DNA of 42,813 nucleotides. Origin: an uncultured Lachnospiraceae bacterium. GTDB taxonomy: Bacteria > Bacillota > Clostridia > Lachnospirales > Lachnospiraceae. The notes under the pieces were generated by a model, which had not been told where the DNA came from, made no database searches, and worked only from the letters and a program-made list of their open reading frames with translations. The stretch covers positions 1-42,813 of the forward strand of contig CAMSTM010000008.1 in NCBI GenBank assembly GCA_947063675.1. The letters run 5' to 3'. Both the position numbers and the translations under genes were made by a program. This document shows, piece after piece, positions 59 through 19,655 of this stretch (its first letter is position 1; each line of letters opens with the position of its first letter).

Positions 59-1636
59 ATGGACATGGACATTTTATCAAATGGAAATACTTTGATATCT
101 GATGTGCTTAATCGGATACTGATATGCCGGAGAGTAAGTGATTTATATCTACTGGGCAATTCTGGAGAAGAGCTGGATTATTTATATCCTTTTGTAAATA
201 TCATCCCGTTGATAGATAATAGTGACAGGGCGGAAGACGTTATTTACATACGCGTTACGGATGAAGATGAATTGGACAGAGCGATACAATGGGTTGAAAA
301 ATATAAAGATATCAAAGATTTCATTATATATGTTTTACCTCATGTAAAAATGTCAGATAAGGACAGGGATGTTCTGGGTGTACCTTATGATGTCAGTTTG
401 TATTCGGGTTTAACGGGAATTTTGTTTTTAACCGGAAAAACTTTTTTGTCGCCAGTAGAAGCAGAAGTGCCGGATACATTTAAAGTTTTGGCAATAGTTC
501 ATTTTTATAATGAAGCAGATATTATCGGGGAGACGATACAATATCTTTTAAGCCAGGACATTGCGGTTTACCTGTTAGACAACTGGTCTGATGATGGGAG
601 TTATGAAATTGCGCAGGAATATCAGAAAAGGTATCCTTCAAAAATATATTTGGAACGCTTTCCTTTCACAGGAAGAAGTGAAAATTATGAATGGTATCTC
701 CAAATGGAAAGGACGGAACAGATAAGTAAGGAGCTTGAATTTGACTGGTTTATTCATTATGATGCTGATGAAATGAGGGTAAGCCCCTGGAGGGATGTTA
801 CCTTAAGAAAGGCAATATATTGGATAGATATCCAAGGCTATAACGGCATAGAAAATACGGTAATTGATTTTAGGCTTACAGAGTATGATAAAGAAAATAT
901 TTTTATGAGAGATGTTTTTTTTGATTTCAGACATTATAATGTTCAGTTTGACCAGTTTAAGACGTGGAAAAAAACGGAACAGATAGAACTAAAGTCAACA
1001 GCCGGGCATTGCGCCGACATAGCCTGTCCGAGGATTTATCCCTTGAAGATTTTAAACAGGCATTATCCCATGAGGGATATCAGACAGGCTGAAAAAAAGA
1101 TTTTCTCAGACAGAAAGCCAAGGTTTAAGAAAGAACGAAAAGAACGCGGGTGGCATGGGCATTATGAAAGATTTAAGGAAACGAAAGATATTCTTTTTGA
1201 CTCCAAAGAATTGTTATTGTGGGGAAAAGATACATTTGAACGATTGTATATTCCGCTGTTTATGGAATGTGGGGTAAGGAAAGAAGAGGAAAAAGAGGAT
1301 AATAGTCTGACAGGAATTAAATTGCCTGATATTACAAAGAAAAGGATAGTGCTTTATGGCGCCGGGAATATTGGAAAAAGAGTATATTTTGAATTGGAAA
1401 GGAGAAATATCATTATTGCTTGGGTAGACAAAAGATATGAAGTCTTAAAGGCCCCACGGTGCAAAAAAATAGTTTCACCTGAAGAAATAAAAAAATTAAA
1501 TTATGATTATATAATAGTAGCTATAATAAATAGGGAGCTAGTGTCTGAGGTGGTTTGGGAATTGGAGGGCGAATACGGAGTTGGCAGGGATGAGATTCTG
1601 CTTATTGAAAGAGATGAGGGTAAGAATCATGGCTAA
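59..1636 (+). CDS. Family 2-like glycosyltransferase with C-terminal Rossmann module
   Basis: Probable cytoplasmic or membrane-associated sugar transferase for a surface polysaccharide. A GT-A core starts near residue 142 (VLAIVHFYNEAD, then DNWSDDG), and a metal-binding type motif HYDADEM lies near residue 235. From about residue 428 a separate Rossmann-like module begins (IVLYGAGNIGKRV) and ends with a VAIINRELVSEV-type strand. The first ~140 residues are unassigned. The start at 59 sits only 1 nt after the GAGGG; an in-frame ATG at 65 has normal spacing and may be the true start. Its stop overlaps the next gene by 8 nt, so the two are translationally coupled. Donor and acceptor sugars cannot be read from the sequence. 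Confidence 0.85.
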   Translation: MDMDILSNGNTLISDVLNRILICRRVSDLYLLGNSGEELDYLYPFVNIIPLIDNSDRAEDVIYIRVTDEDELDRAIQWVEKYKDIKDFIIYVLPHVKMSDKDRDVLGVPYDVSLYSGLTGILFLTGKTFLSPVEAEVPDTFKVLAIVHFYNEADIIGETIQYLLSQDIAVYLLDNWSDDGSYEIAQEYQKRYPSKIYLERFPFTGRSENYEWYLQMERTEQISKELEFDWFIHYDADEMRVSPWRDVTLRKAIYWIDIQGYNGIENTVIDFRLTEYDKENIFMRDVFFDFRHYNVQFDQFKTWKKTEQIELKSTAGHCADIACPRIYPLKILNRHYPMRDIRQAEKKIFSDRKPRFKKERKERGWHGHYERFKETKDILFDSKELLLWGKDTFERLYIPLFMECGVRKEEEKEDNSLTGIKLPDITKKRIVLYGAGNIGKRVYFELERRNIIIAWVDKRYEVLKAPRCKKIVSPEEIKKLNYDYIIVAIINRELVSEVVWELEGEYGVGRDEILLIERDEGKNHG

Positions 1637-2987
1637 AGTTTCAGTGATTGTTCCAGTTTATAATGTACAGGATTATGTAGAAGAATGTATTAAAAGTATT
1701 TTAAATCAGACATTAGCTGATTTTGAAGTTATATGCATTGATGATGGCTCAAAGGATAACTCAGGAAAAATTCTCGACAGGCTCGCTCAGATGGACAGGC
1801 GAATAAGGGTAATACATAAAGAAAATACAGGTTACGGAAACACTGTGAATGTGGGTTTGAGGCAGGCAAAGGGAGAGTATATTGCAATTATTGAAAGTGA
1901 TGACTTTATAGAAAATAATATGCTGATGGAGTTATCTGCTATTGCCGATGAATATGAATTGGACTATGTGAAATCAAACCATTGGGCATACAGTGGAAAG
2001 GGCAGAGAACTCATTGATACAGGCGGTATCCGTGAATACAACAGAGTGATTTTAAGATATGAAAGTATGAATAAAATACTTTCCTGTAAAAGTATCTGGG
2101 CTGGGCTTTACAGAAAAAAATTTTTAGAGGATAATCAGATTTATTTTTTAGAAACGCCAGGGGCCTCGTATCAGGATATATCATTTTGGTTTAAAGTATG
2201 CATAATGGCGCAAAGGGGTTATTTTACCAGAAAAGCATATGTAAATTATAGGGTAGACAACAGTAATTCTTCTGTGAAATCCCGTGAAAAGGTTTTTTGC
2301 GTTTGTGATGAGATGGAGGAATGCGAAAGATACTTGCTGGGGACGGATTTGGATATAGAATGCATATATCCATATTTTGTGATAAGTAAGAGCAATGCGT
2401 TTACCTGGAATATAAGAAGAATATTGCCGGAGCATAGACAGAAATTTGCGGAGAAGGCCAGTGAGGATTTGCGCGCGGATATTTGCGGGCCTTATATGAA
2501 AAAAATGGGCGCATCAGAATGGAAGATGACAGGAATTTCGGAATGGGATATTAATGAAATGAATCTGCTGATGAACTTCCCGGAATCTTACTTAAAATAT
2601 GAAGGTAATGAATTTGTCACAATTACAATGGAAAATAGAGAAACTGTCCTCGCGGCTATAATGAATGAAAAAGAAATATATATTTATGGTGCTGGGAAGA
2701 ATGGACAGAGGTTATCAAAATATATATCAAATAGCGAAAACGATTGCTGTATTAAATACGTAGTTACGGCTTTAAAGGGTGGGGAAGCGGATATTAACTC
2801 AAAGGTTCTGGAAATAAAAAATGAGAAGCTGAACATTGAGAAAAAAATAATTGTAACTGTAGCTAATAATTGTATTAGGAAGGAAATGGTTATTAGAGCA
2901 ATGAACAGAGGATTTAAAAGTATATTTTTACTTGATAATGAAATTATACAGTTTTTAAGGAGATATGAAGATGAATGTAATATATAA
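1629..2987 (+). CDS. Family 2 glycosyltransferase with C-terminal Rossmann module
   Basis: Classical GT2 enzyme: the N-terminus reads VSVIVPVYNVQDYVEECIKS, followed by IDDGSKDNSG and the metal-binding ESDD near residue 88. Such enzymes transfer a nucleotide-activated sugar to a growing glycan on the inner membrane face. The C-terminal third carries another IYIYGAGKNGQRL module (about residue 349), as in the preceding protein. I place the start at 1629 (MAKVSV) rather than at an upstream in-frame ATG (1581), because GT2 proteins begin right at this strand and a GAGGG lies 9-13 nt upstream. It overlaps the previous gene by 8 nt and the next by about 17-23 nt. Confidence 0.88.
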   Translation: MAKVSVIVPVYNVQDYVEECIKSILNQTLADFEVICIDDGSKDNSGKILDRLAQMDRRIRVIHKENTGYGNTVNVGLRQAKGEYIAIIESDDFIENNMLMELSAIADEYELDYVKSNHWAYSGKGRELIDTGGIREYNRVILRYESMNKILSCKSIWAGLYRKKFLEDNQIYFLETPGASYQDISFWFKVCIMAQRGYFTRKAYVNYRVDNSNSSVKSREKVFCVCDEMEECERYLLGTDLDIECIYPYFVISKSNAFTWNIRRILPEHRQKFAEKASEDLRADICGPYMKKMGASEWKMTGISEWDINEMNLLMNFPESYLKYEGNEFVTITMENRETVLAAIMNEKEIYIYGAGKNGQRLSKYISNSENDCCIKYVVTALKGGEADINSKVLEIKNEKLNIEKKIIVTVANNCIRKEMVIRAMNRGFKSIFLLDNEIIQFLRRYEDECNI

Positions 2988-4632
2988 AGATTTTTTGCAT
3001 AGAGTTAAAAATGCAAAAAATGTAAAAATATACGGAGCCGGTAAATTTGCAAAAACTTTATATTATTTATTTAACCGAAAAGGAATTAAAGTGGAAGCAT
3101 TTGTTGTTGCAGATACAAGTCAGAATCCGGCAGAACTTTTTCAAAAGCCGGTTATAGCGTTGGAAAACCTTGAAAAACAGGAAGACTATAGCTTGGTAGT
3201 AGGGGTTGAAAGAAAAGAAACTACACGAAAAATTTTAGAAAATCTTCTTGCTCAGCATATAAAAAATATTATTATTGTACCTGCAAGTATTGTAAATGAT
3301 ATTTATTGCAATTTTGTTATAAATGAGGAATCTATAAAAATATTTATGGAAAACCTTGCAAATGAAAAAAAAGTAATTGTATATGTTGCTGATAGAGACG
3401 GAAATTTGATTATTAGATATATGCAGAACAAGGGTGTGCAAATAGATGCAATATGTACAGAAAAGAAAGAATTGCTTCTGGATTGGCAGATGCCGATATT
3501 ATCTTTTGAGCAGTTGGGAAGTGTTGATAAGAATACCATTATTATTCTGACTATGGGGAATCCGGATTGGCAAAGAGGTTTTGTAAGCAGATTGAGGAGT
3601 AGCGGATTTGAAAGAATTGTTTTGCTATCAGCGGAAATAAAGGAAGCGATTGAAAATGACTTTGGTAGAATGATATGGGAGGAAAAGGGCGCTGATTTTC
3701 AAGTGATTAATACACAGAATGTTGAGCAATATCATTATATTGTCCAAAAGGAAAAGGCGTCTAAAGTATATCGATGGCGGATAGCGGCACGAGACCACTA
3801 TACTTATACAGATAATGAGATAGAATCCATAAGAAAGGGGAGTTTTGTCGAGGAATATGAGAGATTGTTTCCCAACTGCTGTTTTTGTCCTTATGATGAA
3901 GTGCCATTTTGTAAAGTGGATAGCCCTGATATAAATATTGAAATATATTTGTCAAAATGCCATAAAGATAAAAAAATTGCCCAGCAGTCTCTTCCAGCGT
4001 GGCTTATCCCCATTCAAGTGGGAAAAGCCCTGACCGATATTCGAATTGCAGAAGTCTGCGACAACACTGGAGATAATATTTCCATGAAAAATACAGACTA
4101 CTCGGAAGGAACCGCGCTATACTGGATTTGGAAAAATACTCACGGCCAGGATTATGTTGGTTTATTTCATTACAGACGTCAGATGGCAATGGGAAAGGAC
4201 AGCCTGTATAAGCTAATGCAGTATGATGTGCTGCTTACGGTTCCCACCTATATCCCGATGAGTACGAAAGAGTTTTTCTGTACAAACTTCATATTGGAAT
4301 ATGACTGGAATCTGATGATGAAGTACATAAAAGAGTATGATGAATTCTACTATAAGACCGCTCTAAAGCATGAGAAAGCTCATAGTTATTTTCCGTGCAA
4401 TATCTTTATTATGCGCAGGGAATATTTTGATGAGATGTGCGAGTTTATATTTGGCGTATTGGAAAAGGTTGATGGTTATTACGAGAATATTCATATGGTG
4501 AGGAAAGACCGGTATCTGGGGTATCTGGTGGAGAATTTACTGTCTATTTATATGATGCATCATGCGGCGGACCGAAATATAGCTTATACGGATATGAAAT
4601 ATTATTATCCTATAGAGGAAAGTACTTTTTGA
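2971..4632 (+). CDS. DUF4422-type glycosyltransferase with N-terminal Rossmann modules
   Basis: The N-terminal half holds a Rossmann-like module (VKIYGAGKFAKTLYYLF) and a second, degenerate copy near residue 130 (KVIVYVADRDGNLI). From about residue 320 the protein matches the DUF4422 family, putative glycosyltransferases common in capsule clusters (landmarks: EGTALYWIWKNT, VGLFHYRRQM, HSYFPCNIFIMRREYFDEMC). The start at 2971 is 8 nt after AAGGAG; the in-frame ATG at 2965 is only 2 nt away and less likely. The gene appears to stop early: removing one T from the T5 run at 4626-4630 would extend it by 28 basic residues. Function is inferred from family and neighbours. Confidence 0.8.
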   Translation: MNVIYKDFLHRVKNAKNVKIYGAGKFAKTLYYLFNRKGIKVEAFVVADTSQNPAELFQKPVIALENLEKQEDYSLVVGVERKETTRKILENLLAQHIKNIIIVPASIVNDIYCNFVINEESIKIFMENLANEKKVIVYVADRDGNLIIRYMQNKGVQIDAICTEKKELLLDWQMPILSFEQLGSVDKNTIIILTMGNPDWQRGFVSRLRSSGFERIVLLSAEIKEAIENDFGRMIWEEKGADFQVINTQNVEQYHYIVQKEKASKVYRWRIAARDHYTYTDNEIESIRKGSFVEEYERLFPNCCFCPYDEVPFCKVDSPDINIEIYLSKCHKDKKIAQQSLPAWLIPIQVGKALTDIRIAEVCDNTGDNISMKNTDYSEGTALYWIWKNTHGQDYVGLFHYRRQMAMGKDSLYKLMQYDVLLTVPTYIPMSTKEFFCTNFILEYDWNLMMKYIKEYDEFYYKTALKHEKAHSYFPCNIFIMRREYFDEMCEFIFGVLEKVDGYYENIHMVRKDRYLGYLVENLLSIYMMHHAADRNIAYTDMKYYYPIEESTF

Positions 4633-4733: not shown

Positions 4734-7115
4734 ATGTACAGTTTTGATGTGTTTGATACTTTAATTACAAGAACGACTGCTACGCCATGGGGAATTTTTG
4801 CCCTTATGCGTGACCGACTGAAATTGGAAAAACAGATTCACAATCTTGATGAATATGTGGTTGATAATTTCTACGGGATGAGAATCCACAGTGAAGAGCT
4901 TGCCAGAAAAGCAGGCTCATTTCAGCATGTGGAGGAAGTTACTTTACACGATATTTATAAAGCGATGGCTGTCTGTGGCTGTATCAGTGATGAGCAGATA
5001 AAATATTTATGTAAACTGGAGCAGGAAACAGAGGTTGCCAATGTAGTGCCGATTCCGGAAAATATTCAGAGGCTGAAAGGACTGGTAGAGCAGGGAGAAA
5101 GAGTTGTTCTTATTTCGGATATGTATCTTCCCGAGAATACAATACGAAGAATGCTGCTGCAGGCGGATGATATATTTGAGACAATTCCTCTATATGTTTC
5201 CTCAGAGTATGGGAAACGAAAAACAACGGGAAATCTGTACCGTCTGATTAAAGAATTAGAGCAGATTGATATCAGCGAGTGGACGCATATAGGGGATAAC
5301 ATTTATCAGGACATTGAGATATCTTTTCAGTTGGGAATCAGACCGGAGTTTGTGGAAAGAATTGGACGGAGTAATTTTGAAAATGAATTGCTGGAGAAAT
5401 ATGGAGATGACAGCAGACTCCAATTGATGACCGGCACAGCGATAAGAGCCGAAAGAAGTAATGAAGCTGTTTTTCTACAAACCGGCGATATTAAGCAAGG
5501 TATTTCTGAAAGCAGATGCAATGCCTATCATATCGGCTGTCGATATGCAGGCCCTGTATTGTACAGCTACGGGGAATGGATAATTGACCAGGCGGAAAAG
5601 AAAGGTATTGACAGGCTTTATTTTATTGCAAGAGACGGTTACCTGGTGAAAAGGATTGTAGACGTTATCCTGAAAAGCAGAAAGTCAGGTATTGCTACAA
5701 GTTATATTTATGGTTCCAGAAAGGCTTGGAGGATGCCGTCTTTATCCAAAGAAAACTATAATTTGTATCAGATGATTTTCTGGTCGCATGTCCGCAGGAT
5801 AAAAACACTGGAAGATTTGGCGGCGGTTATACATGTGCCTTTACAAAAATTGTACGAATATCTTCCGGGGAGCTTTGCAAGTAATAGGAAAAACATGGCT
5901 ATTTCCCAGTATGAATTGGAGTATGTTATGCGGGAACTGTCAGAAAGTGAGGCTTTTAAAGAATATCACTTGAAAGAACTGGACGAGGAAAGGAAACTGG
6001 TTCGGCAATACCTTTCACAGGAAATCGATACCTCAGATGACAGATTTGCCTTTGTAGATGTTTCCGGAGGCGGGCTTACCCAAGGGTGCCTCAAAGAACT
6101 GCTTAAGGACAGGTATAATAAGTCGATTCACACATTTTTCTTTAAAATTGACAGGGTGAACCTGGTAGAAGGTTCTATAACAGATACCTTTGTGCCCGGT
6201 TTTCTGGAAAACAATCTTACAATAGAGATGATGTGCCGTGCGCCTCATGGGCAGACCAGGGGGTATGAAAAAAGGGACGGGAAAATAGTGCCGGTTCTGG
6301 AGGAGACCGAGGACAGGCAGATAATAGAGCATGGTTTTTATGAATATGAAAAAGGAATTTTTGATTTTTCGGAGCGGATGTATGAAGTGTCTGCTAAAAC
6401 CGGCGTGAAAATTGGTTCAATGAAAAATATTTTGTTGTATATAAAGCATATTGCCGAAGAACCGACAGAAGATGTTTTGGAGTATTTCGCCTCAATACCC
6501 AGCAGCGAATCCGGCAGAGGGGATAAGGTGGTGGAGTATGCGCCAAAGCTGACAAAAGAAGAGATTAAGACAATATTTTTAAAACGTACAAATGAACCAA
6601 TTGAGTTTTTTTATAAAGGAACTGATTTGAATTATTCTCTAATGCGTGCAACGGAAGAAGAAAAAGCTCTGGCAGAGCGTTATAAAAAAGAGCGTAACGG
6701 AACGCTTGGCAGATTTTACAGACAGGAAGCGGAAAAGGAACTGAATGCCAAGCGAAAACAGTATGGCCGGGCGGCGCTTTATCCTGTCAGACTGCTGGAA
6801 GAAAAAGTTGTTCTCTATGGAGCCGGGAAGTTTGGCCAAGACTTATATAAAAGACTGTTGGAAGATGACGGGCATGAGGTTGTTTTATGGGTGGATAAAA
6901 ATGCGGCTGCCTGTCGGCAGCAGGGGCTGGCAAATGTGCAGAATGTTTCGGAGATAAGAAATGCTTCTTTTGACCAGTTAGTTATTGCTGTGGTGGATAA
7001 AAAATTGGCTGAAGAAATTCAGGAAGAATTGGTGCAGACAGGGATGGAAAGAGAGAAGATTATCTGGCTGAGCCCAAACCAGATTGTGGAGTGGAAAGTG
7101 GAAGGGATTGGGTGA
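4734..7115 (+). CDS. COG5610-like HAD-family protein with C-terminal Rossmann module
   Basis: The N-terminus has all four HAD phosphohydrolase motifs: DVFDTL (D5, D8), VVLISDMYLP, the lysine region RKTTGNLY, and HIGDNIYQDIEIS. A second domain of about residues 255-600 includes RLYFIARDGYLVKRI, typical of the large HAD-like proteins found beside glycosyltransferases (COG5610 type). The last ~105 residues carry the cluster's shared module (VVLYGAGKFGQDLYKRL ... LVIAVVDKKLAEEI). It probably acts on a phosphorylated sugar or polymer intermediate, but substrate and direction are unknown. A GGAG lies 8-11 nt upstream of the ATG. Confidence 0.8.
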   Translation: MYSFDVFDTLITRTTATPWGIFALMRDRLKLEKQIHNLDEYVVDNFYGMRIHSEELARKAGSFQHVEEVTLHDIYKAMAVCGCISDEQIKYLCKLEQETEVANVVPIPENIQRLKGLVEQGERVVLISDMYLPENTIRRMLLQADDIFETIPLYVSSEYGKRKTTGNLYRLIKELEQIDISEWTHIGDNIYQDIEISFQLGIRPEFVERIGRSNFENELLEKYGDDSRLQLMTGTAIRAERSNEAVFLQTGDIKQGISESRCNAYHIGCRYAGPVLYSYGEWIIDQAEKKGIDRLYFIARDGYLVKRIVDVILKSRKSGIATSYIYGSRKAWRMPSLSKENYNLYQMIFWSHVRRIKTLEDLAAVIHVPLQKLYEYLPGSFASNRKNMAISQYELEYVMRELSESEAFKEYHLKELDEERKLVRQYLSQEIDTSDDRFAFVDVSGGGLTQGCLKELLKDRYNKSIHTFFFKIDRVNLVEGSITDTFVPGFLENNLTIEMMCRAPHGQTRGYEKRDGKIVPVLEETEDRQIIEHGFYEYEKGIFDFSERMYEVSAKTGVKIGSMKNILLYIKHIAEEPTEDVLEYFASIPSSESGRGDKVVEYAPKLTKEEIKTIFLKRTNEPIEFFYKGTDLNYSLMRATEEEKALAERYKKERNGTLGRFYRQEAEKELNAKRKQYGRAALYPVRLLEEKVVLYGAGKFGQDLYKRLLEDDGHEVVLWVDKNAAACRQQGLANVQNVSEIRNASFDQLVIAVVDKKLAEEIQEELVQTGMEREKIIWLSPNQIVEWKVEGIG

Positions 7116-7160: not shown

Positions 7161-7385
7161 ATGTTAAAAGTAATTGATAATACCAGAGATTTTAAAGAAC
7201 TTTTTGATAACCCTGACCGTAATTTTTACATATATGGTGCTGGATTTCAAGGTAGACATCTTTTGGATCATATACGTTCTAATATCAGTCTAAGGTCAGG
7301 CACTGTTGATATAAAAAACATTTTAGTTACGAATAAGCAGGGTAATCCCGATAATGTGGGGGGGGGTTCCGGTTGTACAGTATGA
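7161..7385 (+). CDS. N-terminal fragment of a frameshifted sugar transferase (Rossmann module)
   Basis: This 74-residue reading frame begins with a GAGG-type ribosome binding site and encodes the first half of the Rossmann-like module (FYIYGAGFQGRHLLDHI). It runs into a nine-G tract at 7358-7366 and stops a few codons later. With eight G the frame would continue as NVGGVPVVQYD into the following frame, giving one protein of about 399 residues. The GVPV strand matches the same position in the cytidylyltransferase fusion downstream (VLGVPVYQPED), which supports the view that the two frames form one gene. As written, it makes a truncated product. Confidence 0.7.
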   Translation: MLKVIDNTRDFKELFDNPDRNFYIYGAGFQGRHLLDHIRSNISLRSGTVDIKNILVTNKQGNPDNVGGGSGCTV

Positions 7386-8361
7386 CAGAATGAATTTTAC
7401 AGAGCAAGATGTTATTATTATAGCTGTAGATAAACGGATAAAAGGAGAAATTGATGATTATTTGCAAGATTGTGGGGCAGAACGTATCGATTTACGTTCC
7501 GGTATCGTGAAATATGAGGATATTTATAATAGAATTAGGCCGCTTGCCGATAATTTTCCTGCTAATATTATGGGAATTAATGAACCTTTGAATTGTTATG
7601 GTGGCAGGATTGTGTGGACATGCTGGTGGCAGGGAGAAGCAGATGCCCCTGATATTGTTAAGGTTTGTTGGCAAAGTCAGCGAAAAAATCTTTCAGAAGA
7701 TATAAAGCATGTTATTATTACAAAAGATAATTATTCTGATTATATTACAATACCGGATTATGTGTTGGATAAGTTTGAGGATGACAAAAATGCTATTGCA
7801 CATTTATCCGATTTTATTCGTGCAAGTCTGTTATATAAATATGGGGGAGTGTGGTTGGATGCAACTGTTTTGCTATTAGAGAAATTACCCGAAGAATGTT
7901 GGGAACTTCCTTTGTATTCTTGGCGAAGTGATAAGATTGATAATATGACGCTGTTTGGCTCAGAATTTAAATGGACAACTTGGTTTCTGGCCGCACAGAA
8001 AGGAAGCGCACTATATCAATTTATCATGGAGGCCTTTTTATATTATTTTTCAGTTTACAATAGGATAGACTATTATTTTACTTTAGATTTTTTTATTTCA
8101 ATAGGAATTAATATATTGGAAGGAGTGTCAGAGCAATTTTTAAATATACCATATAACAATGAAACGGCGGCACGGTTAATTGGTCACCTTAATGAACCAT
8201 ATTCCGAGGAGAAATTTCGTCAATACTGCGAAGGTTCATTTCTACAAAAACTTAGTTGGCATCGGAATGATTATCCAAAAGGTTCTATTTTCGATTATTT
8301 GGTTAGCGGTAATGTCGGCACGGAACCAGCTTTATTAAAAGAACAAGACCCGTTAGAGTAA
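7354..8361 (+). CDS. Capsular polysaccharide synthesis (DXD sugar transferase) protein, frame separated from its N-terminus
   Basis: The catalytic part of the split gene. It carries the end of the Rossmann module (VIIIAVDKRIKGEIDDYL) and then a capsular-synthesis/Gly_transf_sug-like domain: IVWTCWWQGEADAPDIVKVC, HLSDFIRASLLYKYGGVWLD with a D-A-T where DXD-type enzymes bind metal, and DNMTLFGSEFKWTTWFLAAQ. Related enzymes transfer a hexose onto capsule or phosphate-linked polymers. The ATG at 7354 precedes the G tract and has only a weak ribosome binding site, so efficient expression probably requires the tract to shift the upstream frame into register. Could be annotated as a pseudogene with 7161-7385. 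Confidence 0.72.
   Translation: MWGGVPVVQYDRMNFTEQDVIIIAVDKRIKGEIDDYLQDCGAERIDLRSGIVKYEDIYNRIRPLADNFPANIMGINEPLNCYGGRIVWTCWWQGEADAPDIVKVCWQSQRKNLSEDIKHVIITKDNYSDYITIPDYVLDKFEDDKNAIAHLSDFIRASLLYKYGGVWLDATVLLLEKLPEECWELPLYSWRSDKIDNMTLFGSEFKWTTWFLAAQKGSALYQFIMEAFLYYFSVYNRIDYYFTLDFFISIGINILEGVSEQFLNIPYNNETAARLIGHLNEPYSEEKFRQYCEGSFLQKLSWHRNDYPKGSIFDYLVSGNVGTEPALLKEQDPLE
7358..7366 (+). repeat. Nine-G homopolymer within a coding region
   Basis: A G9 run inside an A/T-rich gene, at the exact point where one open frame ends and the next takes over. Mononucleotide G tracts of this length are known slipped-strand mispairing sites in contingency genes of other bacteria. Eight, five or eleven G would restore the full transferase. 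A base-calling error in the run is the main alternative. Confidence 0.85.
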
Positions 8362-11361: not shown

Positions 11362-12011
11362 AAGGGATATTAAATGAGAATATACTGCAGGCATTATATC
11401 GGGCAAATTTTGAGAAAATTATAAACTATATTCTTGGCATATGTGAACTGGTTGTAGAAGACTACGAGAAAAAGCAGTTAAAGCTGCCAAACGATGAAAA
11501 TAAAATCAGGAGTATTATGCTCGAAGAATATATGATAAAGCAGAAGAGTATTTATGGTATGTCAGATTATAGGTTTGAGCTTGAAGTGCCGGAGAATTAT
11601 GCTGGAAATGGGCAGCATATTGGAAGAGTTGATATTCGTATCCTTTTAAAAAATGATTTTGAAAAAGAAGATGCGTATTACATTATAGAATGTAAAAGGA
11701 TTGATGGGACATTTGATTTGAATAAAAAATATGTAAAGGAAGGTGTTGCCAGATTTACTACACAAAAATACTCTTCTTATTATGGCAGAAATATAATGCT
11801 TGGATTTATTGTAAAAAAGATTGATGTATCTGCAAATGTCAGGTTGATTGAAAAAATTCAGAATGCAGAGTTGGATCAACATATGCATGGTGGTTTTCAG
11901 CTTATAAAAAGAGATAATATGACAGAGAGCTATAAGTGTATATATCAGATAAAGGCAGGCGAGGTGGAGCTACGTCATATATTTTCGGATTATTCAAGTA
12001 TTATACAATGA
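11358..12011 (+). CDS. PD-(D/E)XK nuclease-like partner of the methylase
   Basis: 217 residues, overlapping the methylase gene by the ATGA tetranucleotide, so the two are translationally coupled. It shows the PD-(D/E)XK pattern: D92 in GRVDIRIL and E111-C-K113 in YYIIECKRIDG, with a Q-containing helix downstream (TTQKYSSYYG). These are the expected catalytic residues of a metal-dependent endonuclease. I infer it is the restriction subunit, or an effector nuclease, working with the adjacent methylase. No family name is claimed: the assignment rests on the motif and the gene pairing. Confidence 0.68.
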   Translation: MKGILNENILQALYRANFEKIINYILGICELVVEDYEKKQLKLPNDENKIRSIMLEEYMIKQKSIYGMSDYRFELEVPENYAGNGQHIGRVDIRILLKNDFEKEDAYYIIECKRIDGTFDLNKKYVKEGVARFTTQKYSSYYGRNIMLGFIVKKIDVSANVRLIEKIQNAELDQHMHGGFQLIKRDNMTESYKCIYQIKAGEVELRHIFSDYSSIIQ

Positions 12012-12303: not shown

Positions 12304-14871
12304 ATGACCAGAGAGTGTAAAAACCAGATTTTTAAAACGTGGCAGCTTATTGGAAAGCTGCGGCAGATACTGGAAAAGCAGATGAACACATGGCTGCGGC
12401 CGGAAAAGAAAGAAGAGTATTTAAAATTTCTGGAGGAGTATCAGCAGGCGGTGATTTCTGTGGGCAATACTGTCGACAGGCAGACCAGGGAAGAGGAAAG
12501 CAAATTGGTTATTCCGGGTCTGGAGGAGTACTGTGAAGAGATTTACCAGATGGTAAATTGTACCGGAGGGATTTCTGATTATAGCAGGCAGACAGAGGTT
12601 CTGAAGAATAGACATAGACGCATAACAAGAGCACTGGAAGAGATTCCGGTAAGGACAGAAATGCTTTTTATGCCTTACAAATTCAGTATGTGGGACAGTC
12701 TGGAATCAGTTTATCTTGCGGCTGCCAGGGACGAAAACTGTGACGCTTATGTGATGCCTATTCCTTATGTAGAACAGGATAAAGAGGGAAAAACAGAATG
12801 GAAATTTGAGGGAAGAGACTTTAAGGGAATACCGGTACAGGATTTTGAAGAGTATAATTTTGACGAACACAGGCCGGATGTGGTCTTTATACATAATCCC
12901 TACGATAATTGCAATAATGTGACTTCGGTTCCGGCAGAGTATTACACGGCGGAGATTAAAAAATACTGCCGTTATCTGGTTTATATTCCATATTTTTATG
13001 TAGGTGCGGAGCTGCCGAAAATGCATTTAAGTCTGCCTTCATATAATAATATAGATTATATTGTGGTTCCCTCAAACTTTTCCGTGGAACAGATGAGTCC
13101 TTATGTGCCGAAGGATAAACTTTTACCATTAGGCTCGCCCAAGGTTGACCGGATGCTCATTATGAATGAAAAGAGGGAAGTACCGGAAGCGTTCAGGAGG
13201 CAAATACGCGGGAAAAAAGCGGTTCTGTATAATGTGGGGATTAACGGGCTTTTGCGGAATGGTTTCCGCACAATCTTTAAGATGCGTTATGTGTTTGATT
13301 ATTTTAAGAAGCAAAGCGATTTGGTGTTGTGGTGGCGTCCGCATCCGCTGTTAAAGGCAACGGTGAAGTCTATGAAGCCGGAGCTTTTACCGGCCTATGA
13401 GGAACTGGAGCGGGCATTTTTGCTGGAACGGATTGGGATTTATGACCTTACGCCGGACAGCAACATGGCAATTGCCGCCACAGATGCGTTTTTGGGGGAT
13501 TATTCTTCTCTGGTGTGTTTGTATGGACTTTTAGGCAAACCTATTTTCTTTCTGGATGATTTTTCCATGGCAGAGCCCACAGAGGAAGAAAAGAGGCTGA
13601 TGTGGATATCAGGGCTGATTCGGGAATCTGATGGGAATTTTATTTTTTATTCGCCAGATTACCGCTCCCTTTGCAGGCTTTATGATAAGAGTGGAGAGAT
13701 TGAATTTCTATACCGGATGGACGGAAATTATGCGGGCGGGCAAGCCTATTATTTCGAGGAACCGGAGCGGGCGCAGATGCGTTATTTCCCTGTGGAGAGG
13801 CAGAAGCCTACGGTGGTTTACCATATGGCGGATAAGTCCGTTACGTTGGAAGATGCCCCGGAAAACGAGCTGGATTATACTTTTTACAGTACTATTTGGG
13901 AAGATGGGGAACAGACGATTTTCTGCCCGGGGGCGAAGGAGGAATTTGTATTCCGGAACCGCGTGACAGGAGAAGTAAGCCGGTATGACGATTATGCGAA
14001 AGAGCTGATGCCTTATGTGAAGATGACAGGCGACCATTTGCTGAGAGGAGGAGCTATCCGCGTGGGTGATTATGCCTATATGTTGTCATATCAGACAAAT
14101 AAAATGCTGGAATTTAATCTATTGGGCAAGAGTTGGAAACTGTATGATATCGGAGAGGATGAAATGCGTTTTTCATCTTTCTTCTATGATGGTGTGGATT
14201 TCTGGTTTTTCGCGTGGGATGGCTCCTGTATTGTAAGATGGTATACGGAGGGGCATGAAGCAGAATATTACAGCCGGATGCCGGAGGGATATCTGGGATT
14301 ATGCAGCAGTATGACGTCACCTTATACGCCGGCTTTTGGCCCGGTGGTGCTTTTACCGGAGGAAATTATTGTATTTCCCCATGTCGCCAATATGATTCTT
14401 AAAGTTAACAGGGCAAGCGGAGCAATCAGCGAGTGGCGTCCGCAGCTTTTCTATGAGGAGGGACAGAGGAAGTCTTCTCTGTATAATATAAGTTCTAATT
14501 ATGTTTTTGCCTGTCTCTATGATGAAGGGCATATTCTGGCTCAGACAGCTTACGATGGAAGTCTTCTGGTGATTGATATTGCCACCGGAGAGGTGGAGAG
14601 GAAGAAATGCGTCCTTTCGAAAGAGGCCTATGAGAAGCTGGACAACAGCGTAGAGAGTACTGCCTATCGCACACAGGCATTGTCGCCGTACTATTTTAAA
14701 GAAAACGGGCTGCATCAGAGTCTGGGGGATATGATGCGCTATCTGACAGCCGGTTCGGATTCGCAGAAGGAGCGGCAGAAAAAGGTAAGCGTAGAAGGTG
14801 TTGAGAACGTCAACGGTGAATGTGGTCAGAAAGTATATGAACAAATGAAAAAATTGTTGGAGGTAAAATAG
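12304..14871 (+). CDS. CDP-glycerol glycerophosphotransferase-like protein with propeller-like C-terminus
   Basis: 855 residues. Residues ~115-410 resemble the GT-B fold of CDP-glycerol:polyglycerophosphate transferases: VFIHNPYDN, YLVYIPYFYVG, WWRPHP, and DAFLGDYSSLVCLYGLLGKP, the last close to the TDYSS...GKP signature of TagB/TagF enzymes. Such enzymes add glycerol phosphate to a teichoic-type polymer at the membrane. Residues ~470-790 are repeat-like with aromatic strands (YAYMLSYQTNKMLEFNLLG, DGVDFWFFAWDGSCIVRWY, VIDIATGEVE), suggesting a beta-propeller fused to the catalytic part. A matching cytidylyltransferase lies downstream at 18948. Substrate not proven. Confidence 0.72.
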   Translation: MTRECKNQIFKTWQLIGKLRQILEKQMNTWLRPEKKEEYLKFLEEYQQAVISVGNTVDRQTREEESKLVIPGLEEYCEEIYQMVNCTGGISDYSRQTEVLKNRHRRITRALEEIPVRTEMLFMPYKFSMWDSLESVYLAAARDENCDAYVMPIPYVEQDKEGKTEWKFEGRDFKGIPVQDFEEYNFDEHRPDVVFIHNPYDNCNNVTSVPAEYYTAEIKKYCRYLVYIPYFYVGAELPKMHLSLPSYNNIDYIVVPSNFSVEQMSPYVPKDKLLPLGSPKVDRMLIMNEKREVPEAFRRQIRGKKAVLYNVGINGLLRNGFRTIFKMRYVFDYFKKQSDLVLWWRPHPLLKATVKSMKPELLPAYEELERAFLLERIGIYDLTPDSNMAIAATDAFLGDYSSLVCLYGLLGKPIFFLDDFSMAEPTEEEKRLMWISGLIRESDGNFIFYSPDYRSLCRLYDKSGEIEFLYRMDGNYAGGQAYYFEEPERAQMRYFPVERQKPTVVYHMADKSVTLEDAPENELDYTFYSTIWEDGEQTIFCPGAKEEFVFRNRVTGEVSRYDDYAKELMPYVKMTGDHLLRGGAIRVGDYAYMLSYQTNKMLEFNLLGKSWKLYDIGEDEMRFSSFFYDGVDFWFFAWDGSCIVRWYTEGHEAEYYSRMPEGYLGLCSSMTSPYTPAFGPVVLLPEEIIVFPHVANMILKVNRASGAISEWRPQLFYEEGQRKSSLYNISSNYVFACLYDEGHILAQTAYDGSLLVIDIATGEVERKKCVLSKEAYEKLDNSVESTAYRTQALSPYYFKENGLHQSLGDMMRYLTAGSDSQKERQKKVSVEGVENVNGECGQKVYEQMKKLLEVK

Positions 14872-16053
14872 TTGCTGCAAATCAAAAACGATTATCTGGA
14901 AGCTGTCTTTCATAAGTATTCTCATGTGGTCTTGTTTGGAGGGGGAGCCGTGACTTCTGCAATGCTTGCGGCATACGAAGAACAGGAATTTGCGAAAAAG
15001 ATAGATTATATCCTTGACAATGACAGGAGCCGGGACGGAAAAAGCCTGAGTATAAATGGCCGGGAAATGACTCTGATTTCCCCGGAAAGCTTTGCGGGAC
15101 TCAATTATAAAGATTATGCTTTAATTATTATGCCGGTGTTTTTTCTTGATATTGTCAGGAAAATTGACAGGAATGTCTTGTTTGACGGGATACCTACATA
15201 TATTTATGCTTTTATGATGAACGGGGAAAGGAGAAGAGACTTTTCGCTGAAAACGACGGAACAGATGAAAATTCCTAAGATAATTCATTACTGCTGGTTT
15301 GGAGGAAAGGCGATTCCGGAAAATTATAAAAACAACATTGAGAGCTGGAAAAAATATTGTCCTGACTATGAGATAGTGGAGTGGAATGAGACTAACTATG
15401 ATTTTAAAAAGAATCAGTTTATGTATGATGCATATCTGACAAAGAACTGGGCATATGTGTCAGATTATGCACGAAAAGATGTTGTCTATAATTACGGGGG
15501 AATCTATCTGGATGTAGATGTGGAAATATTGAAGCCATTGGACGATTTGTTATATAATAAATTTTTCATGTGTCGGGATGATGTGGCTAATATAGCAACG
15601 GGTGCCGGTTTCGGTGCGGAAAAGAAGAATGAAATTATAAAATCGCTCAGGGATGATTATGAAAATCACAGATTTATCGATGAGAGCGGGCGGGTTATCG
15701 GAAAGGCATGTGGCAATTATGAAACGGCAAGTATGATAAGATACGGTTACAGGCCGGATAACGAGTGTCAGACAATTGCCGGAGGAAAAATATATCCAAG
15801 AGAAGTTTTATGCCCGGTTAGTTGGATGGGGCTGCCTGACAGTTATACTGACAGGACAGTTGCGGTACATAAATATGACGATTTCTTGGTGGATAAAGAA
15901 GGAAAGGAAAACGCACCGGAACTTCGAAAGGAAATAAGGGGTCTGTTGGAGAGGGCATCGGCAAGAGGGACGCAAGAACCGTTTAAGGTAAGGAGAGAGC
16001 GGGAAGATTTATCGGAGTATATTGCACAGAGAAGGTTGCTGGCTTTGCAGTAA
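14872..16053 (+). CDS. DXD-type sugar transferase (GT32-like) with N-terminal Rossmann module
   Basis: TTG start directly after the previous stop, with GGAGG 8 nt upstream. Residues 1-110 form a variant of the cluster module (HVVLFGGGAVTSAML, DYILDNDRSRDG, YALIIMPVFF). From about residue 131 it is a Gly_transf_sug/OCH1-like enzyme: IPKIIHYCWFGGKAIPENYK, WAYVSDYARKDVVYNYGGIY, and the DVD metal motif near residue 214. Members transfer hexoses to lipopolysaccharide, capsule or teichoic-type acceptors. Translational coupling to the glycerophosphotransferase suggests both act on one polymer. Confidence 0.85.
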   Translation: MLQIKNDYLEAVFHKYSHVVLFGGGAVTSAMLAAYEEQEFAKKIDYILDNDRSRDGKSLSINGREMTLISPESFAGLNYKDYALIIMPVFFLDIVRKIDRNVLFDGIPTYIYAFMMNGERRRDFSLKTTEQMKIPKIIHYCWFGGKAIPENYKNNIESWKKYCPDYEIVEWNETNYDFKKNQFMYDAYLTKNWAYVSDYARKDVVYNYGGIYLDVDVEILKPLDDLLYNKFFMCRDDVANIATGAGFGAEKKNEIIKSLRDDYENHRFIDESGRVIGKACGNYETASMIRYGYRPDNECQTIAGGKIYPREVLCPVSWMGLPDSYTDRTVAVHKYDDFLVDKEGKENAPELRKEIRGLLERASARGTQEPFKVRREREDLSEYIAQRRLLALQ

Positions 16054-16110: not shown

Positions 16111-18951
16111 ATGGCAAAGTTAATCACAACTGAAAAAAATAACGGCCAATTGTCCGACTTAAATCGTCAGGTCATTCACTACATCGAGCAGTACCCGTCA
16201 GATTATTACGATGACTGCCTCTCTGAGGAAAGTAATTTCCAGGTATGGTATCAGTTGTCGGAACTGCGTACGGGGCTCCTGAGCTGGTATCCATTTGAAA
16301 GAGAAGCGCAGATACTGGAAATCGGCGCGGGATTTGGCGCGCTTACCGGGCTTTTATGCGACAGGTGCGCGCAGGTAACGGCAACGGAGCGTTCTGTGCC
16401 CCGGGCGGAGGCACTGGCGAAACGCTGGGCGGCGAAGGAAAATCTGACGGTTTATGCGGGGGAATGGAGCGGGCTGGATTTTGGCTGTCAATTTGACTAT
16501 ATTATCCTTACCGGCATCCTGGAACGGATTGCCGGAGGTTCGTCGGAGATGGAAAAGTATGCGGACTACCTGAAAAAGGTGTCCGCACTTTTAAAACCGG
16601 AGGGGAAAATTTTATTTGCCGTAGAAAACCGTTTTGGCCTTAAGTATTTTTGCGGCGTACCTGAGCCCCACACGAACCGTGCTTTTGACGGGCTCAACCA
16701 TTACAGAAAGGGCACAAGAGGGTATTCCTTCAGTAAAAAGGAAATTGAGGATATTTTGTCGCTTGCAGGACTGACCTTTTCCAAATTTTACTATCCCCTG
16801 CCGGATTATAAGCTGCCGCAGATGATTTATACGGATGCGCATCTTCCTGGAAAAAATCTGCATGAACGTCTCCTGACTTATTATCTTCGAAATGACACGT
16901 TAATTGCTTCGGAGACGGCGCTTTATGACGATGTGATTGATAATAATGTGTTTCCTTTTTTCGCCAACTCATTTCTTGTAGAATGCGGAAAGGCAAATAA
17001 TGCAAGTCCAGTGGTTTACGCAGCCGTATCCACAGACAGGGGGGCGGAGAGAAGCTACGCTACGGTTATAGAGGGAGCAGATATTGTGCGGAAGATACCC
17101 CTTCATGCAGAGGGGAAGAAAAACGCTTTGAAGTTGCTGGCAAATATTGGGGATTTGGAGGAGCATCGGATTCCAGTGGTTCCCCACAGTCTGGAAGCGG
17201 ATGGAAGCCTTAAGCTGCCATATATATCCTGGCCCACTTTATCCGATTATATCAAGGAGATAATGGGGAAGGACGAGGGGCTTTTTTTGCAGCTTGTGGA
17301 CCGGATTTATGAGTATATTCTGCAATCCTCTGTGGAAGTACCAAAGGAGCGGAATGAAATGCCGGGATGCGCGGCAGAGGAAACTTTCGGCTTCGGCCCG
17401 ATTCTCGAGAAGGCCTACATCGAACTGATTCCCTTAAACTGCTTTTATAAGCCTGAAACGGGAGATTTTCTGTACTTTGACCAGGAATTTGTATATGAAA
17501 ATTATCCGGCGAAATTTGTGTTGTTCCGCACCATTCATTATATTTACTGTTTTACGCCGGGAACGGAAAGGTATTATCCAAAGCAAAAACTCTTTGAACG
17601 GTATGATATGCAGGATACCTGGAAAGTTTTTCAGGAAGAGGAGATGCGTTTCCTGGACAGTGTCCGTAACCATAAGAAATACCAGAAGTTTTACGAGTGG
17701 ACAAAGATTGACTGGAAGCGGATTGACGATAATGCCGGGCGTCTTGAGTCCGAGGCGGAAAAGATTGCCAATTATCAGATTTCCGATAAAATGAAAAAAA
17801 TCTGGAAGGTGGAGCTTGAGATACTGGATGAGATTGACAGAATCTGTAAAAAGCATGATATTCAGTACTTTCTTGTCCATGGCAGCCTTTTGGGGGCAGT
17901 CCGTCATAAAGGCTTTATCCCCTGGGATGATGATTTGGATGTCGCCATGCTGAGACCTGATTATGACAAATTCCTTTCAGCGGCGGCGGGGGAGTTGCCG
18001 GAGCATCTGTCGGTGCATACGCCTTCCACGGAAAAGGATATTTTTTGGGGCGGCTTTGCCCGGATTAGAAATAAAAACACCACGGGCATCGAGACGCGGG
18101 AGTTAAATCATAAAGGGAATCTGGGAATCTGGGTTGATATTATGCCTGTTGACGTATGCACTATGGACGATGAAAAATTTGTTGAAAAACAAAAGAAAAT
18201 AAGGCATTGCCACAGGCTGATTTGTGCTAAAATATACGGGAGAGATTATAAGCGGTATGCGGACATGAAGCCTCTTATGTGGAATGCATTTAAGATTATG
18301 GCGCATTTTTACAGTCAGGAAAAGCTTGGCGCTATGCTGGATAATGCCATGAAACTGTACACAGACGAGGCGTCCGAGGATGTGGCGTTTTTTCAGGGGT
18401 ATTTTAAACACAGAAGGCTTTCGGCAAAGGATTTTGCCGGGACGGCAATGTTGGAGTTTGAACACCGCAGAGTTCCGGTTCCCGTTGGTTATGAGAACTA
18501 CATGTTCACGATTATGGGGAAGGATTATATGAAGTACCCACCCGAGGAGGAGCGCAAACCCCATCACAGAGGGATTTTCGATGCAGAGAAGCCTTACGGG
18601 GAATATCAGAAAATGTTCGGGGAGACCTTTGAGGGGGCGAAAGGAAAGAAGATTATTCTGTTTGGTTCCGGGCTGATGTTTGAGGATTATATGGAGCGGT
18701 ACGGCGGTAAGTACCGTCCTGATTTCCTGGTGGACAACGATGAAAACAAGTGGGGGCGCTCTCGTATGGGAATTAAAATTAAGGAGCCGAAAGCGATTCT
18801 GGAGGTGCCGGAAAAGAAGCGTCGCCTGATTATCTGCAGTTTTTATTACCGGGAGATTTCAAAACAGCTGGACGAGATGGGGATTCATGATTATAAGGTA
18901 TATATTCAGCATATGGAATGGATTTTGAAGACAGAGGAGCAGCAGGGATGA
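16111..18951 (+). CDS. Methyltransferase-LicD fusion with C-terminal Rossmann module
   Basis: 946 residues with at least three parts. A class I SAM-dependent methyltransferase is at the N-terminus (ILEIGAGFGALTGLLCDRC near residue 67, and LLKPEGKILFAVENRFG). The middle (~300-560) is less clear and has faint kinase-like features (IVRKIPLHAEGKKNALKLL). A LicD phosphotransferase domain starts near residue 568, with HGSLLGAVRHKGFIPWDDDL (residues ~588-607), holding the metal-binding aspartates. The C-terminus adds KIILFGSGLMFEDYMERYGG, the cluster's module. LicD proteins attach phosphocholine or related phospho-alcohols to glycans. Here glycerol phosphate is plausible given the neighbouring cytidylyltransferase. 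ATGA overlap with the next gene. Confidence 0.82.
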   Translation: MAKLITTEKNNGQLSDLNRQVIHYIEQYPSDYYDDCLSEESNFQVWYQLSELRTGLLSWYPFEREAQILEIGAGFGALTGLLCDRCAQVTATERSVPRAEALAKRWAAKENLTVYAGEWSGLDFGCQFDYIILTGILERIAGGSSEMEKYADYLKKVSALLKPEGKILFAVENRFGLKYFCGVPEPHTNRAFDGLNHYRKGTRGYSFSKKEIEDILSLAGLTFSKFYYPLPDYKLPQMIYTDAHLPGKNLHERLLTYYLRNDTLIASETALYDDVIDNNVFPFFANSFLVECGKANNASPVVYAAVSTDRGAERSYATVIEGADIVRKIPLHAEGKKNALKLLANIGDLEEHRIPVVPHSLEADGSLKLPYISWPTLSDYIKEIMGKDEGLFLQLVDRIYEYILQSSVEVPKERNEMPGCAAEETFGFGPILEKAYIELIPLNCFYKPETGDFLYFDQEFVYENYPAKFVLFRTIHYIYCFTPGTERYYPKQKLFERYDMQDTWKVFQEEEMRFLDSVRNHKKYQKFYEWTKIDWKRIDDNAGRLESEAEKIANYQISDKMKKIWKVELEILDEIDRICKKHDIQYFLVHGSLLGAVRHKGFIPWDDDLDVAMLRPDYDKFLSAAAGELPEHLSVHTPSTEKDIFWGGFARIRNKNTTGIETRELNHKGNLGIWVDIMPVDVCTMDDEKFVEKQKKIRHCHRLICAKIYGRDYKRYADMKPLMWNAFKIMAHFYSQEKLGAMLDNAMKLYTDEASEDVAFFQGYFKHRRLSAKDFAGTAMLEFEHRRVPVPVGYENYMFTIMGKDYMKYPPEEERKPHHRGIFDAEKPYGEYQKMFGETFEGAKGKKIILFGSGLMFEDYMERYGGKYRPDFLVDNDENKWGRSRMGIKIKEPKAILEVPEKKRRLIICSFYYREISKQLDEMGIHDYKVYIQHMEWILKTEEQQG

Positions 18952-19655
18952 GTAAAAAGTATAAGTTGGGCTATGTCCCGGGGGTTTTTGACTTGTTCCA
19001 TGTGGGGCATTTAAATTTAATCAACCGTGCGAGGGAACAGAGCGAATATCTTCTGGCGGGAGTCCTTTCGGACGAGCTGGTCATGCATTTTAAGGGGAAA
19101 AGACCGTATATTCCCTTTGAGGAGCGTTTTTCCATTGTGCGGGCCATAAAGGGCGTAGACGAAGCGGTTAAGGTTGATTTTTCCAATACGGTAAAAATGG
19201 ATGCCTGGAAGTTGTATCATTATGACGCTTATTTTTCCGGCGACGACCACGGGCATGAGTGGGACGAAGAAAAAAAGGCGCTGCAGGCGGTGGGGGCTGA
19301 TATTGTTTTTCTTCCCTATACCCAAAGCACCAGCTCCACGATGATTAAGGGGGCAATCAGCGGAAAGGAAAAGAAGCGCCTGTATCTTTTCGGAGCCGGG
19401 AAGATTGGGCAGAGGCTTCTTCATGATTTCCGGAAGGATGAAAGAAGTTCCGTCTGGGAGGTTGCCGGTTTTCTTGACAATTCGCCGGAAAAGTACTTAA
19501 CACGAGTCCTGGGTGTGCCGGTGTACCAGCCGGAGGACTTAAAGCTTTTGGAGGCTGGAGAGCAGTTTGGGGTGATTTTTGCGGTAAAGAACAGAGAAGG
19601 TATGGCGGAGCAGCTTGGCGGGCTTTCTCTGGATTATACTGTGCTGGAAATGTAA
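18948..19655 (+). CDS. Glycerol-3-phosphate cytidylyltransferase-like protein with C-terminal Rossmann module
   Basis: The N-terminal ~143 residues are a TagD/GCT-type nucleotidyltransferase: GYVPGVFDLFHVGHLNLINR with the HxGH motif, KRPYIPFEERFSIVRAI, and TQSTSSTMIKG in place of the usual RTxGISTT. It is expected to make CDP-glycerol, or a similar CDP-alcohol, for the transferases upstream. Residues ~146-235 are the shared module (RLYLFGAGKIGQRLLHDF, GFLDNSPEKYL, VLGVPVYQPEDL, GVIFAVKNREG), so the protein is longer than ordinary GCT (~130 residues). The start at 18948 overlaps the previous stop as ATGA; an upstream in-frame ATG at 18918 is unlikely. Confidence 0.85.
   Translation: MSKKYKLGYVPGVFDLFHVGHLNLINRAREQSEYLLAGVLSDELVMHFKGKRPYIPFEERFSIVRAIKGVDEAVKVDFSNTVKMDAWKLYHYDAYFSGDDHGHEWDEEKKALQAVGADIVFLPYTQSTSSTMIKGAISGKEKKRLYLFGAGKIGQRLLHDFRKDERSSVWEVAGFLDNSPEKYLTRVLGVPVYQPEDLKLLEAGEQFGVIFAVKNREGMAEQLGGLSLDYTVLEM

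Follow-up and report, generated by a model that had tools for sequence, protein, structure and literature searches.

Rossmann-type nucleotide-binding domains have an established place in some glycan enzymes, including the PglD_N domain of the NeuD/PglD/VioB acetyltransferases, the N-domain of PglF/WbpM, and the PF13727 domain of the WbaP-type large monotopic phosphoglycosyl transferases. Excerpts of a WbaP study (PMC10942596) describe a domain that dimerises, supplies most of the dimer contacts, is stabilised by UMP, UDP, or UTP, and is structurally like PglF; an excerpt of a second study (PMC12802240) describes models in which the WbaP-type domain of EpsZ is contacted by a response regulator. 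Here we describe a related module in a stretch of 42,813 nucleotides (the window), the first 42.8 kb of contig CAMSTM010000008.1, from an uncultured Lachnospiraceae bacterium whose 3.74 Mb genome is given as 95% complete. A homologous Rossmann-type module of ~95 residues is found on eight of the nine polymer-synthesis proteins encoded between positions 59 and 19655 (Table 1). It shares profile similarity and a glycan pathway with WbaP and PglF/WbpM (Protein Data Bank (PDB) entries 3nkl, 8t53, and 9s7s), but the domain of WbaP and PglF comes after a four-helix membrane bundle, whereas the module occurs on many enzyme families of one cluster and without such a bundle. The docking domains of polyketide and peptide synthases are likewise small, sit at protein ends, and bring the enzymes of a pathway together; their folds are unlike that of the module, which is one homologous domain, at either end of its proteins, and shows no sign of a cluster-specific code. 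Neither a tag carried by the majority of a glycan cluster's enzymes nor an enzyme-free copy of it was found described in PMC full texts, a scope that leaves aside subscription papers and most preprints and within which some search terms were perhaps too narrow.

A preliminary description of this DNA, made from its letters and open reading frames (ORFs), had assigned the module to eight enzymes. That number is correct, and the copies number nine: the DUF4422 protein carries two in tandem, the second degenerate, and one other copy, on the Caps_synth protein, is split at a run of nine G (G9). The evidence comes from a leave-out test in which each of eight modules served as the lone seed of a profile that was grown on 938 ORFs of other contigs or genomes and then run on the 132 ORFs of the window. 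The training stretches had been picked by matches to an alignment (A1) that contains the window modules, and the tested profiles held no window sequence after the first round. Seven of the eight seeds recovered the modules of the GT2a, GT2b, DUF4422 (first copy), HAD, GT32, methyltransferase-LicD, and cytidylyltransferase proteins, with E values from 2e-3 to 2e-20; the eighth, module 3b, retrieved nothing to train on. None of the 132 ORFs other than the named genes was matched at E ≤ 1; among those left unmatched was the window's UDP-galactopyranose mutase, an enzyme with a NAD-binding Rossmann domain of its own. The split Caps_synth copy rests mainly on motif and position, because its halves score weakly. 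The catalytic domains found with Pfam and NCBIfam agree with the enzyme labels assigned earlier, and, judged by sequence profiles, the copies did not fall into unrelated families, the outcome named in advance as counting against a shared module. The G-[VI]-P-V element is retained in just two window copies, those of the cytidylyltransferase-like and the split Caps_synth proteins.

The most conserved columns of the module are those of its nucleotide pocket. The strand-1 loop has the consensus [YFW]-G-x-G-x-x-[GA] over 124 non-redundant copies: the first glycine is present in 99%, the second in 93%, and G or A at the third position in 79%, while an aspartate closes strand 2 in 81%. A profile of 122 of these copies (A5, which omits window module 3b and L050:3-254; L numbers denote loci) matched PDB entry 3nkl (1e-10), Rex (5e-9 and 1e-7), 2g6t (1.4e-7), the dihydrodipicolinate reductase 7xdu (2.7e-7), VioB (1.4e-5), and WbaP (4e-5), with Salmonella enterica WbaP (8t53) at only 0.026; a further alignment (A4) comprises 20 of the 21 modules of named loci. 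The PDB record names 3nkl as UDP-D-quinovosamine 4-dehydrogenase, and we take it to be the N-domain of a WbpM/PglF-like enzyme. The module aligns with both 3nkl and Rex, and the glycine-rich loop after strand 1 and the acidic residue after strand 2, by which a Rossmann domain is recognised, are present. When the 122 modules were compared with Pfam at E ≤ 0.01, PglD_N was matched by 31, the most of any family, followed by C2185-like_N (20, best 5e-8), to which 2g6t presumably belongs, and CoA_binding (11). The resemblance to PglD_N that had been proposed from the letters is therefore borne out by these 31 matches and by VioB.

In the window proteins, the module stays below the curated cut-off of every Pfam and NCBIfam model. 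PglD_N (PF17836) reached 15.8 bits in GT2a and 13.5 bits in the HAD protein against a cut-off of 23.4 and is unlisted for the other window proteins; the DUF4422 protein matched the NeuD/PglD model TIGR03570 at 6.7e-10, with 38.9 bits against a cut-off of 160.8; and C2185-like_N (PF22674) scored 19.2 and 15.4 bits against a cut-off of 27, which a relative from the genus passes (L044:14059-15540, 28.2). PF13727 (CoA_binding_3) is unlisted for the window proteins and absent from the 25 best of 35 families for the 122 modules. Unlike the NeuD/PglD/VioB acetyltransferases, none of the nine window proteins has a hexapeptide (left-handed beta-helix) acetyltransferase domain by Pfam, although one genus relative does (L043:10785-11693). 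Likewise, a winged-helix DNA-binding domain of Rex type is not listed by Pfam or NCBIfam for any window protein, and the module differs from Rex in being fused to glycan enzymes. We infer from these profile relationships that the module is a compact domain, probably of Rossmann fold and nucleotide-binding, of the PglD, WbpM/PglF, and WbaP kind.

The module recurs in relatives. Beyond the window, its own genome has three further matches, of which contig C25 holds two and contig C11 one. Among 60 genomes, the present one included, 43 were matched at E ≤ 1e-4, with up to 31 matches in one genome of the genus, on few contigs; 24 genomes from other families of the order gave zero or one match apiece. 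Across 20 stretches, the window and 19 that were fetched, iterated profiles found 149 copies, carried by 146 proteins. Within the module spans of the 19 stretches with at least two copies, 145 of 215 genes bear one (7 of 11 in the window's own span), and as many as seven such genes lie side by side, so that the attachment to nearly every enzyme noted earlier holds for eight of nine glycan genes in the window and for most genes of the related stretches. What remains of these proteins when the module is set aside falls into 40 unlike groups. About 25 Pfam families lie above cut-off among the group representatives (39 scanned together, and the fortieth, GT2a, with the window proteins), a number that is lower if the methyltransferase models are merged, and 8 representatives match no family at 1e-3. 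The partners include GT2, RgpF, LicD, CTP_transf_like, radical SAM, FkbM, GT4, AP_endonuc_2, HAD, Gly_transf_sug, WbsX, DUF4422, WcbI, DUF5672, GT-D, GT6, Glyphos_transf, TylF, GDPD, TOD1_MUCI70, and DUF268. The module lies at the N-terminus, at the C-terminus, or between domains, and within the HAD group three of five copies are C-terminal and two N-terminal.

Across the family, at least one match at 1e-6 is found in 218 of 299 genomes, and five or more copies in 56, our genome among them; at most 17 candidates were scored per genome, which makes the copy numbers minimum values. A match at 1e-8 is found in 44 of 196 genomes of the class, and six outside the family have three or more. (The counts of 56, of these six, and of the 22 genomes given below were read off result tables.) Judging by protein length, the weak single matches in the family may be Rex-, PglD-, or WbpM-type proteins. 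We think that the module was fused more than once to glycan-cluster enzymes in the Lachnospiraceae. One stretch also encodes a stand-alone module protein of 145 residues with neither an enzyme nor a hydrophobic end (L052:9229-9663), which barely passes the cut-off for a C-methyltransferase C-terminal domain (23.8 against 23.5 bits).

As a control, we examined 80 loci of named genomes selected by a LicD domain alone. The module was present in 9 of the 80 loci, on 21 of 1110 genes, and in 1 of 76 LicD ORFs; in the subset of 14 loci titled Lachnospiraceae it was on 10 of 178 genes. Seven of the 21 matches (five in L063, two in L139) are not independent, as they apparently derive from an assembly used in training. 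The module is therefore not a usual companion of clusters of LicD type, LicD being the only enzyme family so tested. These counts, with the absence of a match to any non-module gene of the window, rule out a generic Rossmann artefact. One control locus titled Erysipelotrichaceae (L080) had 4 of 16 genes matched, two strongly and two weakly (1e-4 and 6e-4), which suggests transfer or a second origin outside the family.

A further form of the module lacks an enzyme. This conserved protein of ~160 residues, present in several clusters of the genus and called here the anchor form, consists of a hydrophobic N-terminus, a linker with a near-invariant tryptophan, and the module (for example L059:11205-11678 and L153:7179-7652). 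At 1e-12 its profile matches 13 of the 37 genomes from the genus, a count that includes forms fused to larger proteins; in the family, a match at 1e-20 is found in 36 of 299 genomes and a short, near-full-length protein in 22. We fetched its surroundings from 20 of these 22 genomes (all except G259 and G326), chosen for holding one, and obtained 266 genes, of which 26 are anchors. A hydrophobic stretch (19-residue mean of at least 1.2 in the first 40 residues) is present in 26 of 26 anchors, whereas only 3 of the 69 remaining module proteins and 19 of the 171 remaining ORFs have one; in the anchors it is a single short stretch and not a four-helix bundle. The linker and module of this form also lie inside larger frames of about 390-920 residues on the same contigs.

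The anchor form occurs among module genes. Of its 240 neighbours, 69 bear the module, with at least one in 18 of 20 stretches, a strong excess over the 21 of 1110 genes in the LicD loci (p about 5e-10 against the loci titled Lachnospiraceae, with 177 genes used). On either side, 25 of 26 anchor genes share the direction of the adjacent gene; these adjacent genes come from many groups, and none is a fixed partner. Genomes with a short anchor are more often rich in modules (at least five copies), 16 of 22 as against 40 of 277 without one (p 1e-8), and 13 of the 22 remain so when anchors are subtracted from the counts (p 6e-6). In the class, anchor-like matches were found outside the family in four genomes, G391, G405, G429, and G670 (in the last within a frame of 335 residues); G391, G405, and G429 also belong to the six genomes outside the family that have three or more modules. 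Thirty anchors, 25 of the 26 fetched and five of the genus, were aligned (A6). No Pfam or NCBIfam model names the family of these 30: NCBIfam at E ≤ 1e-3 gave single matches to Rex, TrkA, and NeuD, and Pfam gave weak matches, 11 of 30 to 2-Hacid_dh_C (best 2e-5).

We tentatively favour, with less than even confidence, a reading in which the module is a shared nucleotide-binding tag for docking and sensing and in which the enzyme-free copy, where present, acts as a membrane hub. The module would bind a common nucleotide, with uridine nucleotides and nucleotide sugars the likeliest candidates (and NAD(H) a possible one); modules would associate with each other and so draw the glycosyltransferases and the LicD, HAD, methyltransferase, and cytidylyltransferase proteins into one assembly, the activity of which would follow the nucleotide state. 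In part of the relatives, the short anchor, its hydrophobic end inserted in the membrane, would keep this assembly there. The conserved pocket, the module-only protein with a hydrophobic end, and the published work on the WbaP domain make docking and sensing more plausible. The more specific version, a cluster-wide glycan assembly in which a homotypic module on most enzymes and a membrane anchor form a nucleotide-gated complex that new enzymes join by gaining the tag, is possible, and we hold it more loosely.

Several observations weigh against this docking and sensing reading. Full GxGxxG is kept in only 67 of the 124 copies, and window copies 3b, 7 (GGGAVTS), and 8 (GSGLMFE) deviate from it. 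Genes without the module in these clusters include those for GT2, GT4, methyltransferase, epimerase, and AP_endonuc_2-type proteins and a transporter. The anchor form is missing from the window's own genome at E 1e-5 (the contig starts at the first base of the window, and the genome has the completeness given above) and, as a short protein, from 277 of 299 family genomes, including 40 rich in modules. Hydropathy reaches 1.6, the usual limit for a membrane helix, in 14 of 26 anchors and stays below it in 12. Run against the PDB, a profile of anchors only retrieved no Rossmann structure of nucleotide-sensing type; it matched best to alpha-glucan phosphorylases (0.006) and GDP-L-fucose synthases (0.02). 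Finally, modules on different enzyme groups of the same contig are no closer to each other than those between genomes (0.100 versus 0.099; 374 of 2000 label shuffles reach this difference). The excess similarity expected of a docking code specific to each cluster was thus looked for and not found; a generic docking interface is compatible with the test and a cluster-specific one is not. Of the interpretation offered in the preliminary description, the shared module, its PglD_N likeness, its recurrence, and its attachment to nearly every enzyme stand; the lack of an anchor in this genome and of a common module signature per cluster speak against shared docking or nucleotide sensing.

The same similarity data bear on two rival explanations, since modules of the same enzyme group are closer between genomes (0.164) than modules across groups (0.099). 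The first, which we consider somewhat unlikely, is that the module acts solely as an allosteric sensor, each copy adjusting its own enzyme on binding a nucleotide common to all (UMP, UDP, or a nucleotide sugar), with no physical assembly. The pocket columns are the best conserved, modules track their own catalytic group with no cluster-specific signature, and WbaP offers a precedent (PMC10942596), a one-size-fits-all feedback of this kind having been proposed for it. Such a sensor explains neither the enzyme-free form with its hydrophobic end nor the presence of the module on enzymes whose chemistry does not obviously involve nucleotide sugars, among them AP_endonuc_2-type TIM barrels, radical SAM proteins, and GDPD-like proteins.

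The second, which we regard as unlikely, is a private structural or substrate-holding domain that serves its own enzyme alone, perhaps as a dimerisation element or as a holder for the nucleotide sugar, and that recurs because a convenient fragment is copied among neighbouring genes. Modules on unlike enzymes can be close (similarity 0.44-0.50 in the closest pairs), so copying does occur, and Pfam and PDB matches show that a similar domain forms part of PglD-type and C-methyltransferase enzymes; the higher similarity within groups fits as well. Yet about 25 catalytic families with the module at either end, LicD proteins that elsewhere mostly lack it (within the one-family scope of the control), and the existence of an enzyme-free form all count against a private role.

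It is improbable that the module is a redox sensor that binds NAD(H) as Rex does and makes glycan synthesis responsive to the redox state. Rex ranks second among the PDB matches, the 2-Hacid_dh_C family weakly matched by 11 anchors is NAD-binding, and the glycine-rich loop followed by an acid at the end of strand 2 has the form of a classical NAD motif; however, the acidic position also fits uridine nucleotides, and the best PDB match (3nkl), VioB, and WbaP are domains of glycan pathways. Neutral hitch-hiking with no function, which could account for degenerate copies such as module 3b, the incomplete GxGxxG motifs, and the module-free cluster genes, is very improbable given that 99% of 124 divergent copies retain the first pocket glycine and that the module is fused, at either end, to many families.

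The features of the window and the long G/C tracts are collected in Table 1. For the cytidylyltransferase-like protein the best PDB match is an ethanolamine-phosphate cytidylyltransferase (3elb, 3.8e-21), and the glycerol-3-phosphate cytidylyltransferases 2b7l and 1coz match at 2e-13. The LicD protein is closest, among named records, to one of Clostridium sp. NALB_7961_37 (79%). The tandem modules at 3007-3654, the second without the glycine motif, form a natural pair for a study of module-module contacts, and comparable tandem modules are found in a radical SAM protein (L164:10358-12034).

Table 1. Glycan genes, module copies, and long G/C tracts; positions without a locus handle refer to the window.
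Feature	Position	Strand	Evidence or remark
GT2a, GT2 family glycosyltransferase, module C-terminal	59-1636	+	Pfam Glycos_transf_2 2.6e-8
GT2b, GT2 family glycosyltransferase, module C-terminal	1629-2987 (ORF list start 1581)	+	Pfam Glycos_transf_2 1.3e-34
DUF4422 protein, two tandem N-terminal modules	2965-4632	+	Pfam DUF4422 1.1e-38
HAD-type protein, module C-terminal	4734-7115	+	NCBIfam TIGR01549, 25.2 vs cut-off 23.3 bits
Caps_synth protein, frame broken at G9 tract within N-terminal module	7161-8361	+	Pfam Caps_synth 1.7e-56 on piece 7354-8358
Glyphos_transf protein, sole module-free glycan gene of the cluster	12304-14871	+	Pfam Glyphos_transf 6.8e-8; no match in leave-out test
GT32-like glycosyltransferase, module N-terminal	14872-16053	+	Pfam Gly_transf_sug 4.9e-16
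Methyltransferase-LicD fusion, module C-terminal	16111-18951	+	Pfam LicD 1.2e-37, Methyltransf_12 1.5e-8
Cytidylyltransferase-like protein, module C-terminal	18918-19655	+	Pfam CTP_transf_like 3.1e-17
Module 1, GT2a C-terminus	1337-1633	+	YGAGNIG...VDK; leave-out E 3e-10 to 9e-16
Module 2, GT2b C-terminus	2664-2984	+	leave-out E 2e-3 to 4e-7
Module 3a, DUF4422 protein, first N-terminal copy	3007-3318	+	leave-out E 2e-11 to 2e-12
Module 3b, DUF4422 protein, second copy, glycine motif lost (YVADRDG)	3361-3654	+	weak, leave-out E 5e-4 to 8
Module 4, HAD protein C-terminus	6795-7112	+	leave-out E 6e-10 to 1e-14
Module 5 N half, Caps_synth protein N-terminus	about 7206-7361	+	YIYGAGFQG; E 5e-3 to 4e-2, 7 of 7 profiles
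Module 5 C half, different frame	7354-7533	+	GVPVV...IIIAVDK; E 8e-2 to 2, 3 of 7 profiles, unlisted in the other 4
G9 tract, site of frame change	7358-7366	+	
Module 7, GT32-like protein N-terminus	14917-15228	+	leave-out E 4e-4 to 2e-6
Module 8, methyltransferase-LicD C-terminus	18640-18948	+	leave-out E 7e-14 to 2e-20
Module 9, cytidylyltransferase-like protein C-terminus	19368-19652	+	leave-out E 7e-12 to 1e-16
G/C tracts of 9-10	7358-7366 (window); L044:3054-3062; L047:6823-6831; L057:17024-17032, 17926-17934		
G/C tracts of 9-10	L152:2468-2477; L160:14571-14580; L167:3245-3253; L168:13502-13510		

The tract that breaks the Caps_synth gene is one of only three G/C tracts of nine or more in its genome. 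Among runs of at least eight, the 619 kb of fetched module stretches hold eight, all 9 or 10 long, and the 1.29 Mb of LicD loci hold eight, all exactly 8 (p 4e-5 for run length with the window tract included, a difference noticed post hoc). Each of the nine long tracts is inside a long open frame; three coincide with a frame break and the other six do not. These tracts look like sites of slipped-strand phase variation of glycan genes; a frame break at a G/C tract is possibly a sequencing error.

Other genes lie within and around the cluster. Between the Caps_synth and Glyphos_transf genes (8473-12011) are a restriction-modification methylase of Eco57I/MmeI type (962 residues) and an unassigned neighbour of 217 residues. 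Directly 3' of the glycan cluster (19702-23104) are two HpcH/HpaI-type aldolase genes and a carboxyl transferase, followed at 23923-25056 by the UDP-galactopyranose mutase. The polymer may contain galactofuranose, since this mutase lies near the gene for the DUF4422 protein and, in an excerpted source, DUF4422 is present in the galactofuranosyltransferase WbbM (PMC12269835). On the minus strand at 25119-26420 is a protein of 434 residues that looks by eye like a flagellar cap and has no Pfam match at 1e-5, and at 29121-30509 a PGA_cap (capsule synthesis) protein lies among genes that by eye resemble those for ribosomal proteins and rpoB/rpoC.

To our knowledge, how the cytosolic enzymes of capsule, teichoic-acid-like, and other glycan pathways stay together, or at the membrane, is a largely open question, and a tag on most of the enzymes, with an enzyme-free copy of membrane type, makes it directly testable. 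The domain class is a known one; an assembly system built from it would, if shown, be categorically new. The module provides a sequence marker for glycan clusters and their missing members. It could serve to bring unrelated glycan enzymes together, and, were it a nucleotide sensor only, it would still be one feedback device across a whole pathway.

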